A stretch of DNA of 64,000 bases, from assembly GCA_013306675.1 (NCBI GenBank), contig JABLUY010000036.1, forward strand, positions 62,001 through 126,000, given 5' to 3'. The position numbers and the translations under genes are program-made. Shown one piece after another: positions 2,418 through 21,428 of the stretch. Position 1 is the first letter of the stretch. Each line of letters begins with the position of its first letter. Under the pieces are notes generated by a model, which saw only the letters and a list, made by a program, of their open reading frames with translations, had not been told where the DNA came from and ran no database searches. Source of the DNA: Thraustochytrium sp. TN22. Its lineage: Eukaryota; Sar; Bigyra; Thraustochytrida; Thraustochytriidae.

Positions 2418-5195
2418 TCATTGCCCAAGATTGCGCCGCTTGGCAGGGGGTTCGTCATAAACGTCTGGAAGTGCGGCCTTGATGCGGCCCTGGTGGGCAG
2501 TCGCCAAGAGCTGCGGCACGGTCTTGCCCGTGATGTTCGCCGCAACGAGAAGCGTGGAGCGCTCGGCGCGCTCGATGGGGTTGATGTTCTTGCGGATGAT
2601 GGTATTCAGGATGGAGTCTGCAAAATTGTGAGTGGTGGCGATGATGACGTGCAACTGCGTCTGCACGAGTGGGAGCTGGCCAGAGCGCGAGAGTGCGTCC
2701 ACGAGGTCCATCGCCTTGTCGCGGTGTGGCATGAGGTCTTCTGGAGAGAGATCAATGGACGTTTTGGCCGCAGGATTCCACGAGGTGCCTCCATAGCTCT
2801 CCCAGTGAAAGGGCATGTTGGCGTCGATTTGGGTGGGGCAGAGTGCCCCCTCGGGGTCGTGCTTGTGCAAGCTCGCTTCGAGTTGCGCCGGGAGACTCGT
2901 GAAATCCTCCATGGCGTTTTCCGACACCTCCTTGTCGTCGTCGTCGCCGCCGCCGTCATTCATGACGTGTACGATGCCGTCTTCGTCCTCCTGCATCTGC
3001 ACATTCAGATTCCCTGCTTGCTGTTCTTGCGAAGGCCCCAGACGCGGCTGTGGCGATGGCGGGCTGTAACTATGCGCTGTTCTGTGCCGCCTTGCGCCAG
3101 CCCTACCCAGTTTTTTCCTTGCCCGTCTCTCCTGCATCTCCCGCTGCATCTGCAGCTGCATCTGCAGGCGTTCCTTGACACCGTCACGGAGCATGTCTTT
3201 GAGACGTCCGACATGACCGCGCACGGCCTCGACCTTGTCCGCAATGCTCGCATCGGACGGGCCCTCGTAGGAGACGAGGTCAGACGGGATCTGGAAGTCC
3301 GTGAAGAGCTCGACGAGGTCCTGTGTAAGCGCAATCTCCTTGGTGAGTGCGCCGGGCCCGAGGTTGAGCAGTGCCTCCAGCTGCGGCTTGATTTCCACCA
3401 CGGCGACGGCGAAGACGGTGCCGGCGAGCTGCATCTCGCGCATGGCTCGGGCAAAGCTCTGCTGTTCTGGCGAGAGGCTCTCGATGTTGTTGTGAAAGTC
3501 CTTGGCTGAGGGGATCGTCCTGAGAATCAGCGGCACGAGGACGCGGTCCTTGTCCCTCATGACGATTGCATGCTCAATCTTGAGCTCGTCCTTGGCCGCG
3601 ACGGTGCCCACCAGGAGTACGAAGCTGCTGAGCGCGCGGGCGCGCACCTCGAGCTCGAGCCCCTCCACGCTCCATTCGTCAACGGCGTGCGCGACGTAGC
3701 CGTGGCAGTACTGTGACCCGTGCATCTCCACGCGCGTTGCTGCACTGAGCTTGAAGCCCATAGGCAAGGCAGGGCTTTGCGCGTCCCCAGGATGCCGAAT
3801 CCTGACACAGGTGTTAACCTCGCTCTCGTGCTCGGGATTGCGAATGGAGAGCGAGCCCTCGGGCGCGAAGCCCGGACGCTTGATGTCATAGCAGAAGGGC
3901 TTGAAGATCTCCTCCTCGAAGAGACGGGAATGATGGAAGGCGAGGTACTTCTCAAAGTCTTCTTCTGTAACCTCCTTGCCGATAGCGTCTTGCAGCTGGC
4001 CACGAAGCAAGCCTTCGACGTCATCACAGGATCCTTTGACCATCTCGTTGATGCTGATGACGCTGGACAAGAGCTTGCAGATCAGGGCCTCGAGCGTCGT
4101 GATCAAGCCTGCCGCCTCGCCGCCGTCCGCAGAAGGCACCAGCGAGCGCGCCTTCTCCAGCCAGCGCTCCAGGTCGATCTTGTGCTCACGCTGCAGCGCA
4201 AGCTGGGTGGCCTTGGCCATGGGTTGCCCCGTCGGCTCCTTTCCCTTGCCTCCAGCGGTAGGCTCGAACAGCGGGAGGACCGGAACAAAGACCTTCTCTG
4301 CGCTCGAGGGGTCCTCCAGGTCGGAGCTCTTGACCAGCGTTTCGATCCCCTCGAAGTGGCACTGCACCTCGCGAGCCCATGCGGAGAGTTTGCCCATGAC
4401 GGTCAAGACGCGATCCACGTCCTCGTTGCGTCGCGGCGTGTAGCAGGACGCGGCGGCGCGGTTGATGGCGAAGCGAGGACCGGCCTCGCTGTCGACGTCG
4501 ACGAAGAGGTCCGTCACGTTCACGCTCTGGCTTGGGAAGGCGTGCACAGCTGGCGCCGGCGCGATCTTTTCCTTGCCTGTGGTGAGGATCTCCGCGACGC
4601 CCGTACGACTGGCCAGGACCACGCCGTCTTGGTCCGGATGCGCTCCCGTGTGCAGAATGATGCGGAAGCTGTGTTCCACGCGCCACTGGTGCTCCACGAT
4701 CGTGTGGACCATGGTCGTTGTCGTGGACCTCGTCGTCCGCTTCTGCTGCAATTGCTGCTCTTCATGATGCTGGGCCGCGACACTGGTGTCGACGGTTTCC
4801 ATGTGCTCATGCTCCACGATGCTGGGTCCCTCCTGTTTGCGCTCCGTGGTGGCCACAAAGCTGCACTTGTGGCTTGCCTCGAGGCGCAGGCTCACGGCAC
4901 GGCCGGCGGCCACCCAGGTGAGGGCCGTGGCTAGGCCCTGCTGGCTCAGGCCGAGCATTTCCAGGTCCGTGCAGATGGCGTGCAACCCGTTGTTGACGGC
5001 CTGCTCCACGAGCAGGTACTTGTCATCGTACGTGTGCTTGGTCGCCCCCGCAAACACGGGCACCTTGTTCTGATCCAGCACCAACTTGCAGCGCTCCAGC
5101 GCCTTGTTCACGCGCTCGGAGAAGCTCGCGCCCCCCACGTAGCGCTCTTGGTATTTGCTCCGCTGCGAGCGCCTGAACGTTCCGTGCGCGAACAT
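2418..5195 (-). CDS. Large uncharacterised protein, paralogue A
   Basis: The frame encodes about 925 residues from the ATG at 5195; a GTG one codon upstream was not used. I recognise no named domain. It is clearly homologous to the divergently transcribed gene at 6427-9381 along nearly its whole length. Shared blocks are an N-terminal segment (NKVPVFAGATKHTYDDKYLL, then a VEQAVNN motif), a central block ending in TPRRN, a block with the YCHGY motif, and a C-terminal block around SRSGQLPLVQTQLHVIIATT. A variable glutamine- and acid-rich linker separates the central part from the last 150 residues. There is no signal peptide or membrane segment. A basic PPAKRR near the C-terminus could be a nuclear signal and is absent from the paralogue. 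From memory, similar proteins occur as expanded hypothetical families in other protists, but I could not check this. Confidence 0.85.
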   Translation of the reverse strand: MFAHGTFRRSQRSKYQERYVGGASFSERVNKALERCKLVLDQNKVPVFAGATKHTYDDKYLLVEQAVNNGLHAICTDLEMLGLSQQGLATALTWVAAGRAVSLRLEASHKCSFVATTERKQEGPSIVEHEHMETVDTSVAAQHHEEQQLQQKRTTRSTTTTMVHTIVEHQWRVEHSFRIILHTGAHPDQDGVVLASRTGVAEILTTGKEKIAPAPAVHAFPSQSVNVTDLFVDVDSEAGPRFAINRAAASCYTPRRNEDVDRVLTVMGKLSAWAREVQCHFEGIETLVKSSDLEDPSSAEKVFVPVLPLFEPTAGGKGKEPTGQPMAKATQLALQREHKIDLERWLEKARSLVPSADGGEAAGLITTLEALICKLLSSVISINEMVKGSCDDVEGLLRGQLQDAIGKEVTEEDFEKYLAFHHSRLFEEEIFKPFCYDIKRPGFAPEGSLSIRNPEHESEVNTCVRIRHPGDAQSPALPMGFKLSAATRVEMHGSQYCHGYVAHAVDEWSVEGLELEVRARALSSFVLLVGTVAAKDELKIEHAIVMRDKDRVLVPLILRTIPSAKDFHNNIESLSPEQQSFARAMREMQLAGTVFAVAVVEIKPQLEALLNLGPGALTKEIALTQDLVELFTDFQIPSDLVSYEGPSDASIADKVEAVRGHVGRLKDMLRDGVKERLQMQLQMQREMQERRARKKLGRAGARRHRTAHSYSPPSPQPRLGPSQEQQAGNLNVQMQEDEDGIVHVMNDGGGDDDDKEVSENAMEDFTSLPAQLEASLHKHDPEGALCPTQIDANMPFHWESYGGTSWNPAAKTSIDLSPEDLMPHRDKAMDLVDALSRSGQLPLVQTQLHVIIATTHNFADSILNTIIRKNINPIERAERSTLLVAANITGKTVPQLLATAHQGRIKAALPDVYDEPPAKRRNLGQ

Positions 5196-6426: not shown

Positions 6427-9381
6427 ATGCATCCGGCGAGGTTCCGGAGGACGCTCAAGGAGGCGGTGGAGCGCGCCAAGCTCGTGCTGGAGAGGAACAA
6501 GGTGCCCGTGTACGCGGACGCCACACCGCACAGCTACGATGACAAGTTCCTGCTCGTGGAGCACGCGGTGAACAACGGGCTGACCGCGATCATGACGGTG
6601 CTGGGCGCCCTGGGGCTGGACGCCCAGGCGCAGGCCAAGCTCCGCACGTGGGCCGCCGAGGGCAAGGCAGTGAGCCTGCGCCTGGAGGCCGCGCGCAAGT
6701 GCACCTTTGTGCGCACGGACACGCGCCAGGAGATCGTGGGTGATGTAGAGCACGTGAGCAAGTTCAAGGGCGTCACGAACTCGAGCAAAACAGTGCAGAC
6801 TATCACGGAGCACAAGTGGCTCCTGGAGCACTCCTTCCGCGTGGTGGCTTTCCACGGCTCCAACCCGGACGACGCGGCCGTCGTGCTGACCTCGCGCACT
6901 GGCCAGCGCGAGCTGACCACCGTGGGCAAGGAGAAGCAGGCGCCCGCCAGCGAGACGCACGCGTACCCGGACCGCAGCGTGAACGTGACGGATCTGCTGA
7001 TGCTCCTCGACAAGGAGCTGACGCCGTGCTTCGACATCGACCGCACCGAGGAGGCCTGCGCCACGCCGCGCCGCAACCCGGACGTGGAGAAGCTGCTCGG
7101 CGTGCTGCGGGATCTGGTCGGCTGGATCACCGCAGTGCACACGCACCTGGAGGAGATCTTCCAGTTCTGCGACGACGTGGACCGCGCCAGCTTCTCCAGC
7201 ACTGACGACATCTTCGTGCCGGTGTTGCCGATGCTCCAGACGGAGGGCGAGGACGGCAACGGCGCGCAGCCCATGGACGAGGACAGCGAGCGCAAGCTGC
7301 AGGCCGAGCACCGCATCGACGTGGACAAGTGGCTGAACAAGGTGCGCGCGCTGCTGCCGACGCCGGACGGCGGCGCGGGGGCCGGCCTCGTCACGACGCT
7401 GGAGGCATCCGTCTACAAGCTCATGCTGCACTTGCGCAGCATCATCAACGCCATGACGGCGTCGTGCGATGAGGCGGAGCGTATGCTTCTCGCGCAGCTG
7501 GCGAGCGCCATCGGCAAGACGGTCACGCCTGCCGACCTGGACGAGTACATGCGCTACCACAACCGGCGGCTGTTCGCGGAGGAGATCTTCCGGCCGTTCA
7601 GCTTTGACGTGAAGCGCCACGGCTTCGCGCCGGAGGGCACCCTGTCGCTGGAGGACCCGGACAAGGCCGAGGCTTCCGAGGTGTACACGTGCGTCAAGGC
7701 GCGCGTGCCGGGCGCTGGCTCTGGCAAGGACGCGCCTGTCCCGATGCGCTTCAAGCTCGGCACGTCGACGAGCGTGGCGATGCAGGGTCCGCAGTACTGC
7801 CACGGGTACATTGGCCACCGCTTCGGCGGGCGCGGCCGGCTCGGCGCCGGTGGGCACACCGTGTTGAACCTGGTGGCGCGCGCGCGGCAGTTCTCGAGCT
7901 TCGTGCTGCTGGTCGGCAAGATCGCCGCCAAGGACGACTTCAAGGTCGAGCACGCCATCGTGCTGCAGAACAAGGACTCCGTCATCATTCCGCTGCTGCT
8001 GGACCCGCTGCCGTCTGCCAAGGCGTTTCGCGACGCGATCGAGAGTCTGTCTCCGGAGCAGCAGGAGTTCGCCAAGGCGATGCGCGCCATGCAGCTCGCG
8101 AGCACGCTGTTCGGCGTGGCCGTGGTGGAGATCAAGCCGCAGCTGGAGCTGCTGCTGAAGCTGGAGCCCGGGTCGCTGACGAAGCACATCGCGCTGACGC
8201 AGGACCTGATGAGACTGTTCACCGAGTTCCAGGTCCCGTGCGATCTGGTGACGTACGACGGTCCCAAGGAGGCGAGTGCTGAGGACAAGATCGCCGCCGT
8301 GAAGGCTCACGTGAAGGCGGTCATGGACATGATGGAGGATGGGCGCAAGAGGCGGCTTGCGGAGCAGCGCGATCGCGCCGCGAACAGCCTCCTGGATCGC
8401 GCCGCGAACAGCCTCCTGGAACGCTGGGAGGCAGGGTTTTCCGGGATTTCCGCATCTCTGGCGCCGGACCCTTTCCTGGCCGCTTCTTCCCCCACATCTA
8501 GCATTCAGCACGATGTAGGCCTACTGTTTGACTCGAACGATGACGCTTCGGATGGCGACGAGGACGAGGAGGGTTCTGACGTGAATAAGAGGGCGACGCG
8601 GAGCAAAAGTAGGAGCAGAAGTAGGTCTTCTTCTAGGCCTAGGGGAGGCGGCCTTTCTCGATATCGGGACCCATTTAGAGGCAAACGCCCGTTTGAACGC
8701 GAACTCCGTATGTCTGGTGCGACGGTGGCGCCCAGGTCGTTTCCCGGCGGCGCCACCGTGCAGCCCCGTTCTCTTCCTTCCTTGATGGAGCAGCAGCAGC
8801 AGCAGCAGCCCGCGCAGGAACGACAAATGGTGCAGCCTGCCAAGCCGCAGGCAAGGCGAGCGCAAGAGCAACAACAGACGCAGCAAGTTGCAGAGGGCAT
8901 GGAACCGATGGCGGACATCGCGCTCGACTACACGCGGCTGCCGGCCCAGATGGACGCCAATTTCGAGCAGCGCGACCCAGACGGCGCGCTGCGCGCCACT
9001 ACCATCAGGCCGCGCCATCCTTTTGTGCTCGAGAGCCACGCGTCGCCGTGGATGCCCAAGGAGAAGCAGACTTCCACGCTCGACGACGGCAAGCTCAAGG
9101 ACCACCGCAACAAGGCCATGGACCTCTTGGATGCGCTCTCGCGCTCGGGCGAGCTGCCACTCGTGCAGACGCAGCTGCACATTGTGATCGCCACGACGCA
9201 CTGCTTCGAGGACTCTATCCTGGATACGATCATTCAGTGCAACGTGAACCCCATCGAGCGCGTTGAGCGCTCCACCCTGCTCGTGGCATCCACCATCACC
9301 GGCGTCCCGGTCCCGCGTCTCCTCGCGCCGTCTCACGAGGCCCGTCTGCAAGATCGCATGCCCCAGCTCTTTGCGGACTAA
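6427..9381 (+). CDS. Large uncharacterised protein, paralogue B
   Basis: About 984 residues, starting at MHPARFRRTL. The frame is open further upstream, but only through CTCTCG repeats without homology, so the ATG at 6427, which aligns with the start of the homology to paralogue A, was chosen. Conserved blocks match gene A: TPHSYDDKFLLVEHAVNNGL near residues 35-55, ATPRRNPDV near 215, QYCHGYIGH near 460, and a C-terminal block with DALSRSGELPLVQTQLHIVI near 900. Between about residues 640 and 830 is a variable linker with a 24-base direct repeat giving AANSLL twice (8373-8420), an Arg/Ser-rich stretch and a glutamine run. No catalytic motif or membrane segment is recognised. It is probably a soluble protein of a lineage-expanded family, head-to-head with its paralogue. 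Confidence 0.85.
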   Translation: MHPARFRRTLKEAVERAKLVLERNKVPVYADATPHSYDDKFLLVEHAVNNGLTAIMTVLGALGLDAQAQAKLRTWAAEGKAVSLRLEAARKCTFVRTDTRQEIVGDVEHVSKFKGVTNSSKTVQTITEHKWLLEHSFRVVAFHGSNPDDAAVVLTSRTGQRELTTVGKEKQAPASETHAYPDRSVNVTDLLMLLDKELTPCFDIDRTEEACATPRRNPDVEKLLGVLRDLVGWITAVHTHLEEIFQFCDDVDRASFSSTDDIFVPVLPMLQTEGEDGNGAQPMDEDSERKLQAEHRIDVDKWLNKVRALLPTPDGGAGAGLVTTLEASVYKLMLHLRSIINAMTASCDEAERMLLAQLASAIGKTVTPADLDEYMRYHNRRLFAEEIFRPFSFDVKRHGFAPEGTLSLEDPDKAEASEVYTCVKARVPGAGSGKDAPVPMRFKLGTSTSVAMQGPQYCHGYIGHRFGGRGRLGAGGHTVLNLVARARQFSSFVLLVGKIAAKDDFKVEHAIVLQNKDSVIIPLLLDPLPSAKAFRDAIESLSPEQQEFAKAMRAMQLASTLFGVAVVEIKPQLELLLKLEPGSLTKHIALTQDLMRLFTEFQVPCDLVTYDGPKEASAEDKIAAVKAHVKAVMDMMEDGRKRRLAEQRDRAANSLLDRAANSLLERWEAGFSGISASLAPDPFLAASSPTSSIQHDVGLLFDSNDDASDGDEDEEGSDVNKRATRSKSRSRSRSSSRPRGGGLSRYRDPFRGKRPFERELRMSGATVAPRSFPGGATVQPRSLPSLMEQQQQQQPAQERQMVQPAKPQARRAQEQQQTQQVAEGMEPMADIALDYTRLPAQMDANFEQRDPDGALRATTIRPRHPFVLESHASPWMPKEKQTSTLDDGKLKDHRNKAMDLLDALSRSGELPLVQTQLHIVIATTHCFEDSILDTIIQCNVNPIERVERSTLLVASTITGVPVPRLLAPSHEARLQDRMPQLFAD

Positions 9382-18184: not shown

Positions 18185-18974
18185 GTTTGCTGCCAGGCGC
18201 TCGTACGCGCCGACCTCCTCCAACAGCCTGCGTAAGTTAGGATATTTCCGTGCCGCGCCGGCCGCGTCGTCCGGCCGCCCGTGCCGCCGCGCGGCAGCAG
18301 GCAGGAGTGCGGGCCGGCCAACGAACGGCCGTGCGTGCGGGCACGCGTGCGGGAGCCGAGCCCTCGCTCTGCTCGCCACAAGCTCGCGCGGCTCGGGCTG
18401 GATGGAGGTCTGCCAGCTCCACCGCCGGTTGCCTGCCACCTGCTGCACCAAGTCGAGCTGAGGTGGTGCCACGTTGAACAAGGGAATTTCGCTGGAAATG
18501 GGTTGCGCAGCGTCGTGCATCAAAGCAGCGCAAGCAATGCAAGTGCTTGTGCAAGCAAGGCGGCGAGGGCGCACTGCACGCGGCCCTGGCCCGCTCGGCG
18601 TACAGGAACGTCCACGCGCGTGCGGCGTGCTGCGGTGCCATCACCAATGGTGACGGCTTGGTGCCTGATTCTGTGGAGGTGACTGCGACTGCGGAGCAGC
18701 GCGCGTCTGGCGAGACCGTGAACGGCGTGAGGACTTGGCAGGACTTGGAGCGTCTCGCAGGTTCCCACTGCGGGCACAATCGCGCACAATCTGCTCAGAC
18801 TGCGGTCTGTGAAGACGCTCCCGCGTCGATCGGCCCGGGCACGGCGGAGGCGGCGGGGCCCGCGCTGCGAGCAAACCTGCAACGAGGCTGAGAGCGACGA
18901 GACCGAGAGCTGGAGCCTGCGGCAGCGAGAGCAAAGCAAAGGCAGTCCGTGCTCCGACGTCAAAGCGCGGCAGC
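18185..18974. promoter_or_regulatory. Shared 5' region of PLGRKT-like and PUB genes
   Basis: The 790 bases separate two divergent start codons. They contain the acceptor and branch site of the PLGRKT-like gene (18228-18240) and so probably its 5' exon, perhaps including the minus-strand ATG at about 18517. I could not find a phase-compatible donor. No other gene is supported. Confidence 0.4.
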
Positions 18975-19541
18975 ATGGCGTCGTCGACATGCAACGAGGA
19001 CGTGTACGCAGCGAGCATTCACAATGCGTGGGACGTGCTGGCGGTCCGCGCGTCCTTGCCGCAGCGCCGGCCTGGCAAGCGAAAGGCGCCAGAGCGAGAG
19101 GAAGAGCGAGCGCGGGAGCGAGTGCGAGAGGGAGCGCAAGAGCAAGCACAAGAGCGAGGCCGAGGCCAGAGCAAAAAGCGGAGAGCGAGCGTAGGCATGA
19201 TGACTGCAACGCTACGAAGCGCACTGGCCGACCTCGAGACCTCTGCCACCATCGACAGGAACGCCACGCGGATGGCGCTGCAACGCCTCGTCAAAATAAT
19301 TCGCAACGCAGCAGACCCCACAGACCCCCGACACAGGCGCCTGCGACTTGGCAACCAGGTCGTGCGCTCCACCCTAGATCATGCGCAAGGTGCACCCACC
19401 ATCATCCTCATGGCGTCCGGCTTCGAACTCGCAGTCGACTCCACGATGCTCTACTTGCCCTCCGCACAAAGCGAGCGTTTCCCTGACCGATGCGACTCTA
19501 TCTGTTCCGCGCTCGATAAGCTTTTAGGCCAACTTTCCTAA
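18975..19541 (+). CDS. PUB-domain protein 1
   Basis: 188 residues. The C-terminal 115 residues form a PUB-like domain: LQRLVKIIRNAADPTDPRHR, then RLRLGNQVVRST and a segment matching the 'LL..GF' strand (IILMASGFEL), ending in a helix with LDKLLGQL. PUB domains bind the C-terminal tail of the AAA ATPase p97/VCP. The N-terminal 70 residues are Arg/Glu-rich with a possible nuclear signal (KKRRA). The same kind of domain closes the gene at 20102-21428, so the two look like tandem duplicates that diverged in their N-termini. An internal MM near residue 75 could also be a start. Confidence 0.65.
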   Translation: MASSTCNEDVYAASIHNAWDVLAVRASLPQRRPGKRKAPEREEERARERVREGAQEQAQERGRGQSKKRRASVGMMTATLRSALADLETSATIDRNATRMALQRLVKIIRNAADPTDPRHRRLRLGNQVVRSTLDHAQGAPTIILMASGFELAVDSTMLYLPSAQSERFPDRCDSICSALDKLLGQLS

Positions 19542-20101
19542 CTGTGATTGAGCACGTTGTGTGGCCTCGCCAGCACGGCGCTGCGTGTCGGCGCGGCGCA
19601 GTGCAATGCATCGTGCATCGCAAGTTGTTGTTGTTCGCCCCCTTGGAGCTTCCTCGCTGGCTGCGAGAGCGCACAGGAAATCTTGAAGAGCGAAGGCATT
19701 GCAAGGCAGACCCCGTTCGGCGCCGCGTAACGCATTGCAAGGCAGACCCCGTTCAACTTCGGCGCCGCGCAACGCACCGGTAGTTGTTGTTCGTTCCCTT
19801 CGAGCAAATCTGCTCTTGGCGGACCTGGACCTGGACCTGCTTGCCTGCCTGCCTGTCTGCCTTGCTGCGAGAGCGTGGAGGAAAACCTGAAGAGCGAGAG
19901 CGAGAGCGAGAGCGAGAAGAGCAGGCGCGACGCACCGACGATTTGGTGGACCTGGCGCTTGCCTGCGCTTGCATGCCTGCCTGCCTGTTTGGATGCAGGA
20001 GAACTTGAAGAGCGAGACGAAGAGGCACTGCGCCACTGCAAGGCAGACCCGGTTCGTCGTGGACGAGGACTCCGACGAGCCGCGCGGCGCGGCGCGAGAC
20101 C
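19542..20101. repeat. Imperfect repeats before the second PUB gene
   Basis: There is no gene, but related segments recur. (A)AGTTGTTGTTCG occurs at about 19623 and 19784; GA(A/G)...CTTGAAGAGCGA or CCTGAAGAGCGA near 19682, 19885 and 20002; and TGCAAGGCAGACCC at about 19699, 19737 and 20037. The pattern suggests three diverged copies of a 150-190 base unit, interleaved with GAGAGC and GCCTGCCTGCCT simple repeats. The right end is the leader of the gene starting at 20102. Confidence 0.55.
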
Positions 20102-21428
20102 ATGGTAAGCTGGCGGCGGCAGCGGTGCACCGGGCGGCAGCGGCGGACTCGCCGGCGGCGCGCGGGCCGGCGGTCGCGCGGGCGATAACTGAGGAATGGC
20201 GAGCGCTAACGCGCACGACGACGCGACGTAGGGCAACAGCAAGAGCCACAAGGCGTTCCAGGGCCAGGGCCACTCGCTGCGCGGCGACGGAGGCGCAGCG
20301 CAAGCGGCGCCGGCCAGGGCTCCGGCTGCGAGCAGCAGGGCTGCGAGCAGCAGGAGGCTGCCGATTCGGACGAGGACCAAGGCGCCGGCGCCGACGCCCA
20401 AGACGGCCGCGGAGGTCGCAGCGCAGCGGGAGCAGGCGCTCGCCGCCGCGGAGCAGCGCAGCCGGCAGTGGGACGACAAGATTGCGCGGCAGCGACAGCA
20501 GCGCGCGCAGCTGCGCGAGAAGGAGACGCCGCGGGACACCGGCAGCGGGACGGCGGCCAACTCGGCGCTCGAGTCGCTGGCCGGCCTGGACGCGAACGGC
20601 GCGGTGCAGCGGGACCTCGAGCGCCAGAAAAAGGAGCTGGAAGACAGCGGCTTTGATGTGTACCAAGCGGCCTCGCACAGCGCCTCAGCCGGGCGCGCCG
20701 CTGTCGCGCTCGCCGGCATGCAAGACCCCGAGCCGCAGCCCACGCAGCCCGGGCAGCCCGTGCGGCAGGCTTCGCCGCAGGAAATCATGCAGCGCGCCGG
20801 TGCAATGCTGGACTCCGCCATGGAGAGCCCCGACCTGAATGCGCTCGCCGAAGCGCTAGACTACGCCCATGACGCCGTCTCGTCCGGCGCGGTTGAGAGC
20901 GATGAGGTCGACGGCGACCTTCTCCAAAAGTATGAGGCGGCGCTGCAGATGCACGAGGCAATGCTCGCCTCGGTGCAAGACACCGCAGACCTGGAGGAGG
21001 CGAGCAGCGGGGCAGCGCCGGCGCCGGCGCCGGCGCCGGTGCTGGCACCGAACGCGGACGAGGCCGTCGCCGCCATCACGCAGGCGATGGGCGACCTGGA
21101 GACTGCCGCCACCATGGACCGCGAAGCGTCAGTCAAGACGCTCCAGCTGCTAAACAAGGCGCTGAGCAACGCCAAGGAGAAGCCGGACGAGGACAAGTTC
21201 AAGCGGCTCCGGCTTGCCAACAAGACCATTGATACTTGCTTCGTCAAGCACGCGAACGGCGCCGCGGCGCGCATTCTGCAGTCGGTCGGCTTCCAGAAGA
21301 AGAAGGATCCGGACGCTGGTGGCGAGGAGGTTTTGGTGCTTGAGGACAGTGACCTCTTTGCCACGCGCGTGGACGCGACCTGCGCAATGCTTACAACGCT
21401 TTTGCGTCAGCTTGAGGGTGGGGCATGA
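20102..21428 (+). CDS. PUB-domain p97/VCP cofactor, likely N-myristoylated, ATG-only first coding exon
   Basis: The open frame runs back from the stop at 21428 to an acceptor at 20231 (CGACGTAG, with GCTAAC 21 bases upstream), where it meets an in-frame TAG. Just upstream, ATG at 20102-20104 is followed at once by GTAAGC. Joining ATG to the exon at 20232 gives MGNSKSHKAF, a textbook N-myristoylation start (Gly2, Ser6). The intron is 127 bases, phase 0. Residues 10-17 read FQGQGHSL, matching the p97-binding SHP box (F-x-G-x-G-x-x-L). A Gln/Arg-rich coiled coil follows (about 65-140), then a linker with an Ala-Pro repeat, and a C-terminal PUB domain (TLQLLNKALSNAKEKPDEDK, then FKRLRLANKTID). 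The 399-residue protein would have two p97-binding elements and a membrane anchor. The first exon is inferred. Confidence 0.7.

Follow-up and report, generated by a model that had tools for sequence, protein, structure and literature searches.

How might a single protein hold the AAA ATPase p97/Cdc48 on a membrane and grip it at both of its ends? The question is raised by a gene predicted on the plus strand at positions 20102..21428 of a 64-kb stretch, positions 62001-126000 of contig JABLUY010000036.1, from Thraustochytrium sp. TN22 (the whole stretch that was analysed, 64,000 nucleotides, is called the window below). Judged from its sequence, the gene product is probably a myristoylated adaptor of p97/Cdc48, which would bridge the N domain and the tail of the ATPase at a membrane. 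A two-ended grip of this kind had been put forward in a preliminary description of the locus, and it is still the best reading, with the SHP core, the PUB domain and the GXXXS start all present in the predicted product. What that description overlooked is a match to the VIM consensus between the SHP box and the PUB domain, which, if real, would bring the number of p97 contacts to three.

Predicted start of the gene

The frame that bears the PUB domain opens right behind a TAG at 20229-20231, and its first in-frame ATG is codon 164, at 20718. A codon-usage score, trained on 2799 codons from five AAA genes, is positive for this frame in all 16 scoring intervals of 20400-21389 (0.07 to 0.63 bits per codon) and negative for the other two frames; it is also positive (0.23) in the interval that contains the SHP box, 20220-20309. 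Since there is no ATG before codon 164 and codon usage is coding-like well before it, the gene needs either a start codon spliced on from upstream or a non-ATG start.

In the model that we favour, a first exon consisting of the start codon ATG alone (20102..20104) is joined across a 127-base intron (20105..20231) to a second exon that supplies codons 2-400 and the stop (20232..21428). The spliced start context reads ACCATGG. The intron has a GTAAGC donor at 20105, a CTAAC at 20206-20210, whose predicted branch A lies 22 bases before the acceptor, and a TAG acceptor. At the junction 20104/20232 the letters are just as the preliminary description had given them, and the product, MGNSKSHKAFQGQGHSL, has 400 residues; the splice itself is a prediction. 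Its signals resemble the type used by the genome's own introns: the two introns available for comparison, recognized from frame breaks in Rpt2 and in an NVL-like gene (both genes named by eye), have GTACGT donors, CTAAC or CTGAC branch sites and CACAG or GACAG acceptors. A CTAAC-type branch site stands 10-60 bases upstream of 1.05% of the 3803 AGs on the plus strand. Two scoring intervals in a low-complexity stretch, 20280-20369 (-0.60) and 20340-20429 (-0.15), weigh against the model, being negative and below another frame.

Predicted myristoylation start and SHP box

Provided that the predicted splice is right, the protein starts with MGNSKS, in which GNSKS (20232..20246, plus strand; G2 and S6) fits the N-myristoylation rule GXXXT/S/C (PMC11310202; this and the other papers cited by PMC number are represented here by excerpts), and the genome encodes a myristoyltransferase (PF01233, 242.6 bits). 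Residues 10-17, FQGQGHSL (20256..20279, plus strand), agree with the SHP core F-x-G-x-G-x-x-h (PMC8181520), so the order first described, a GXXXS start followed by an FxGxGxxL core, does occur in the product of the predicted splice. A fuller SHP consensus adds a hydrophobic residue 2-3 places before the aromatic one (PMC5389986), and no such residue is found at these places here, which are taken by H7 and K8; the SHP boxes of PUX proteins likewise carry a positive residue where UFD1 has F225 (PMC8181520).

The SHP pattern is rarely produced by chance: when residues 2-110 were shuffled 200,000 times, it appeared in a fraction of 0.0003, and when the whole protein was shuffled 20,000 times, in a fraction of 0.004. 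FxGxGxxh has no occurrence in the 12,592 residues of the window's coding-like segments, a set to which the present SHP box does not belong. We also collected, from both strands of the window, the open stretches of 30 codons that come after an AG. Under a matching rule of our own devising, a G...[STAGCN] start with FxGxGxxh within 25 residues, one of these 5852 stretches matches, namely the present one. Furthermore, UFD1 of the same genome, whose C-terminal sequence is SSFHGQGRSLADS, carries FSGTGQRVDG together with a near copy of the SHP box, SSFHGQGRSL, and the organism thus uses the same type of motif in a core p97 cofactor. A search of the genome with the N-terminal 98 residues revealed no second copy, the next match having an E-value of 0.199.

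An unlikely alternative is that of a cytosolic p97 adaptor with the same SHP box and PUB domain, whose true start lies elsewhere (at a different first exon or acceptor, or at a non-ATG codon), so that no myristate would be attached. The first exon is indeed only predicted: when the joins between an ATG and an acceptor at most 1 kb downstream were enumerated for acceptors between 19700 and 20375, 200 left the frame open if every GT and every AG was allowed. A GTRNG donor is found in 25 of them, and in 10 of those there is also a CTRAC at a distance of 10-60 bases ahead of the acceptor; these ten amount to two first exons combined with five acceptors each. Paired with ATG 20102, the five acceptors give the starts MGNSKSHKAFQ, MSHKAFQ, MAFQGQG, MGQGHSL and MGHSLRG, with the SHP core whole in the first three; two of the products from the four later in-phase acceptors (MSHKAF... 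and MAFQGQG...) would thus keep the core and lose MGXXXS, and a weak coding signal in another frame at 19980-20129 (0.04 and 0.25) also speaks for a different start. Against the cytosolic protein, however, stands the fact that just two first exons in range have the GTRNG donor and the CTRAC, one of which (ATG 19272) falls within the neighbouring PUB gene and would take an 870-base intron. Moreover, the first AG past the branch site is the acceptor at 20231, which yields the protein with the myristoylation start, and a GXXXS start from that acceptor is improbable by chance, given that 29 of the 5852 open stretches match the stricter rule GXXX[STC], likewise of our own devising.

PUB domain, VIM pattern and central helices

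At the other end of the protein, residues 299-375 (21123..21353, plus strand) match PF09409 with 40.8 bits against a curated cut-off of 34.3, which bears out the PUB domain that the preliminary description had placed there. The residues with which PNGase contacts the p97 tail, N41, K50, Y51 and R55, correspond to N314, K323, F324 and R328, three of the four being identical and the other having Phe for Tyr. A single-sequence AlphaFold model (mean predicted local distance difference test score, pLDDT, 61.4; predicted template modelling score 0.29), useful for the helices and the PUB fold only, gives a PUB domain closest to the PUB structures of UBXD1 and PNGase; the top two Foldseek matches are p97-bound UBXD1, at the weak E-values of 0.074 and 0.13. 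When the open frame was scanned with Pfam up to an E-value of 10 (the HMMER filters drop most matches above about 0.1), the PUB domain was found alone, with no UBX and no WLM domain, and under the same limits the SVIP profile PF15811 matched neither the 398-residue open frame nor its first 110 residues.

The VIM consensus, REQALAAAEQR (RX5AAX2R; residues 67-77, 20427..20459, plus strand), sits in the longest helix of the model (open-frame residues 59-98), where the mean pLDDT values of successive blocks from residue 61 to 100 are 77, 86, 91 and 73. We regard this VIM as possible only, because the pattern is common by chance here: it arises in 9% of shuffles and occurs five times in the 12,592 coding-like residues, this one included. 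Farther on, the model predicts a three-helix bundle at about residues 182-260 (20772..21008, plus strand), whose structure matches MIT domains and many other helical bundles alike, and which no Pfam family matches above its cut-off. An MIT domain in mid-protein has no sequence support, and the structure match is not specific.

The PUB family and putative p97 partners in the genome

The source genome (37.9 Mb in 453 contigs) contains 15 PUB matches, 10 of them above the cut-off, which are spread over 13 open frames, with three in a single very long one. All 13 frames were read, the long one over 3166 of its 6937 codons, and 12 of them, that is all except L010, were scanned with Pfam. The domains found beside PUB are thioredoxin and ubiquitin (L015), PPPDE and ubiquitin (L016), TUG-UBL1 and UBX (L019, which has neither SHP nor VIM pattern), WLM and Pex14; in further frames OTU and UBA each accompany a sub-threshold PUB, one PUB lies beside a sub-threshold CW finger, and another stands alone (L017). 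The codons read of the very long frame (L013, G000:C410:96000-105500) also encode EF hands and Tudor-like domains. Among the 13 frames read, the protein under study is the only one in which SHP and VIM patterns occur together. Single patterns are found in others, namely FGLGNQL in the OTU frame, FGGMGGGL in the Gly/Met-rich tail of the thioredoxin frame, and VIM in the UBA and WLM frames.

The nearest paralogue is a tandem PUB gene 0.6 kb upstream (18972..19541, plus strand, its start codon picked by eye), with 37% identity over 115 residues (E 4.9e-16). Its PF09409 score of 27.7 bits is below the cut-off, and it has no SHP or VIM pattern and no MG start. A second local match between the two proteins, partly outside PUB (E 1.3e-4), was discounted, the low-complexity filter having been off.

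A quite improbable explanation holds that the PUB domain serves another partner, as that of HOIP does with SPATA2 or OTULIN, and that the N-terminal motifs are due to chance. Ligands of PUB other than p97 do exist (HOIP-SPATA2, HOIP-OTULIN), the VIM pattern is within chance, and the 15 PUB matches of this genome stand in varied settings, all of which favour such a partner. On the other hand, the residues in contact with the p97 tail are retained, and the SHP core is rare and matches that of the genome's own UFD1, both of which argue for p97.

The ATPase itself was sought in the genome with CDC48_N, AAA_lid_3, CDC48_2 and the full-length model of CDC48. This search, which covered part of the 27 AAA_lid_3 places and 24 of the 47 candidates of the CDC48 model, revealed no canonical p97/Cdc48 gene. 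The candidates were read instead as NSF, Rpt subunits, AFG2-like, NVL-like and other AAA proteins. UFD1 and the many PUB proteins are present despite this, and the missing gene is probably a gap in the sequence, such as an assembly gap, and not a gene loss.

Two WLM proteins of the genome (L033, G000:C22:79000-86500, and L018, G000:C105:36000-44000) were seen in passing. One has no PUB match but combines SHP and VIM patterns with a sub-threshold match to the SVIP profile; the other has a VIM pattern and PUB. Over the whole genome the SVIP profile gave three sub-threshold matches, two of them in WLM proteins and the third in a 66-residue frame, which is not believed. Another observation concerns a minus-strand frame for a Pex14-like protein (L020, G000:C44:83000-91000) that combines Pex14_N and KPWE with a PUB domain (35.4 bits against the cut-off of 34.3); its product may possibly link a peroxisomal docking protein to p97 or to another AAA ATPase with such a tail.

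As for the window, its G+C content ranges from 59 to 73% in 2-kb steps, and its Pfam matches are of eukaryotic types (Arf, protein kinase, Nop53, RCC1 with a PH domain, and others); scans of the window with Rfam and for tRNAs gave no match. Two long coding-like frames in opposite directions, at 2475-5153 (minus strand) and 6451-8418 (plus strand), share the similar segments KLVLDQNKVPVFAGATKHTYDDKYLLVE and KLVLERNKVPVYADATPHSYDDKFLLVE, and neither has a Pfam match at E up to 0.01.

Proposed mode of action

Returning to the myristoylated adaptor, the scenario would run as follows. The one-codon exon would supply the start codon; after removal of the Met, Gly2 would be myristoylated and bring the N-terminus to a membrane. 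At a distance of 8 residues from the lipid, the SHP box would bind the p97 N domain beside the membrane, the short spacing suggesting that the N face of p97 comes close to it. The VIM helix may provide a second N-domain contact, and the PUB domain, about 220 residues on, would hold the C-terminal tail, so that p97 would be recruited to the membrane with both faces of its ring bridged, either within one hexamer or between two. The behaviour of SVIP and UBXD1, described below, suggests the same by analogy, with p97 brought to the membrane through its N domain and its tail held by PUB. No UBX or lariat was found, and hence there is no reason to expect ring opening of the UBXD1 type.

A more tentative and somewhat doubtful version is a three-point, lipid-anchored clamp, in which myristate, SHP and VIM together hold the N face and PUB, some 220 residues away, holds the tails, so as to set the orientation of the motor or to bridge two rings; the central bundle, if MIT-like, might then link it to membranes of the endosomal sorting complex required for transport III (ESCRT-III).

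If true, the adaptor would be a single protein that both recruits p97 to membranes, as SVIP does, and contacts it at its two ends, and it would do so in a microbial eukaryote only distantly related to the animals, fungi and plants on which most work on p97 adaptors has been done. It would also offer a simple natural test of whether gripping the N domain and the tail together activates p97, blocks it or only places it, a role for which it is suited because neither UBX nor lariat was found. Furthermore, it would fit the picture of p97 adaptors as being rebuilt from a few shared parts, PUB standing, among the scanned PUB frames of this genome, beside thioredoxin, PPPDE, OTU, WLM, UBA, UBX or Pex14.

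Comparison with known p97 cofactors

UBXD1 grips p97 by VIM, UBX and PUB, with which a single molecule can reach across three p97 protomers (PMC10716044). It resembles the present protein in its N-terminal VIM, a possible feature of the latter, in the fold of its PUB domain and, weakly, in the PUB sequence, and UBXD1 (UBXN6) also has a degenerate FKSAGPGQKL near its N-terminus, comparable to the SHP box here. It differs in that its PUB precedes a C-terminal UBX and a lariat and that it starts with MKKFF, whereas here PUB comes last and no UBX was found. That the protein is a reduced relative, with the function of UBXD1 divided between this SHP-VIM-PUB protein and the UBL-PUB-UBX protein L019, is highly improbable: the VIM and PUB of UBXD1, the domains of L019 and the two Foldseek matches to p97-bound UBXD1 favour it, but the E-values of the latter are weak, homology of the N-termini was rejected as their similarity is not significant, and the PUB domains of the two (23-30% identity, depending on the alignment) are no closer than those of some other PUB frames.

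SVIP has, to our knowledge, no PUB domain. Carrying a myristate and a VIM, it draws p97 to membranes, for which both G2 and the VIM are required (PMC3164199), and its layout of an N-terminal myristoylation start followed by a VIM (PMC3164199, PMC11310202) recalls the predicted start and possible VIM of the present protein. As far as the excerpts go, it differs in having 77 residues and palmitoylated cysteines (PMC11310202); here there is no cysteine near the start, and the SVIP profile gave no match.

Wss1, a WLM metalloprotease, has SHP and VIM together, both of which bind the Cdc48 N domain (PMC4559962). The SHP box and the possible VIM of our protein recall this pair; Wss1 differs in its WLM protease domain, not found in our protein. 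The genome's WLM protein with SHP and VIM patterns resembles Wss1 in having both. Arabidopsis PUX2 unites a putative SHP box with a PUB domain (PMC8181520) but also has a UBX domain and a zinc finger, with no lipid start mentioned in the excerpts. PUB1, a PUB protein of the protist Leishmania, co-precipitates with p97 (PMC7403338), and the excerpts mention neither SHP nor VIM nor a lipid start in it.

The preliminary description knew of no cofactor with this exact layout. In the open papers searched, a myristoylation start, SHP and PUB without UBX were indeed not found described together, but SHP and PUB in one protein are not unprecedented, because PUX2, according to the excerpts, carries a putative SHP box in addition to PUB. 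A search for relatives of the protein in two contig collections gave 3 and 32 pattern matches, none of them a relative; since these collections hold viral and prokaryote contigs, this silence says little. Most likely the protein is of mixed build, its anchor resembling that of SVIP, its SHP box and possible VIM those of Wss1, and its PUB domain that of UBXD1, without UBX: each part is known, and the layout would, so far, be a new combination of known parts.
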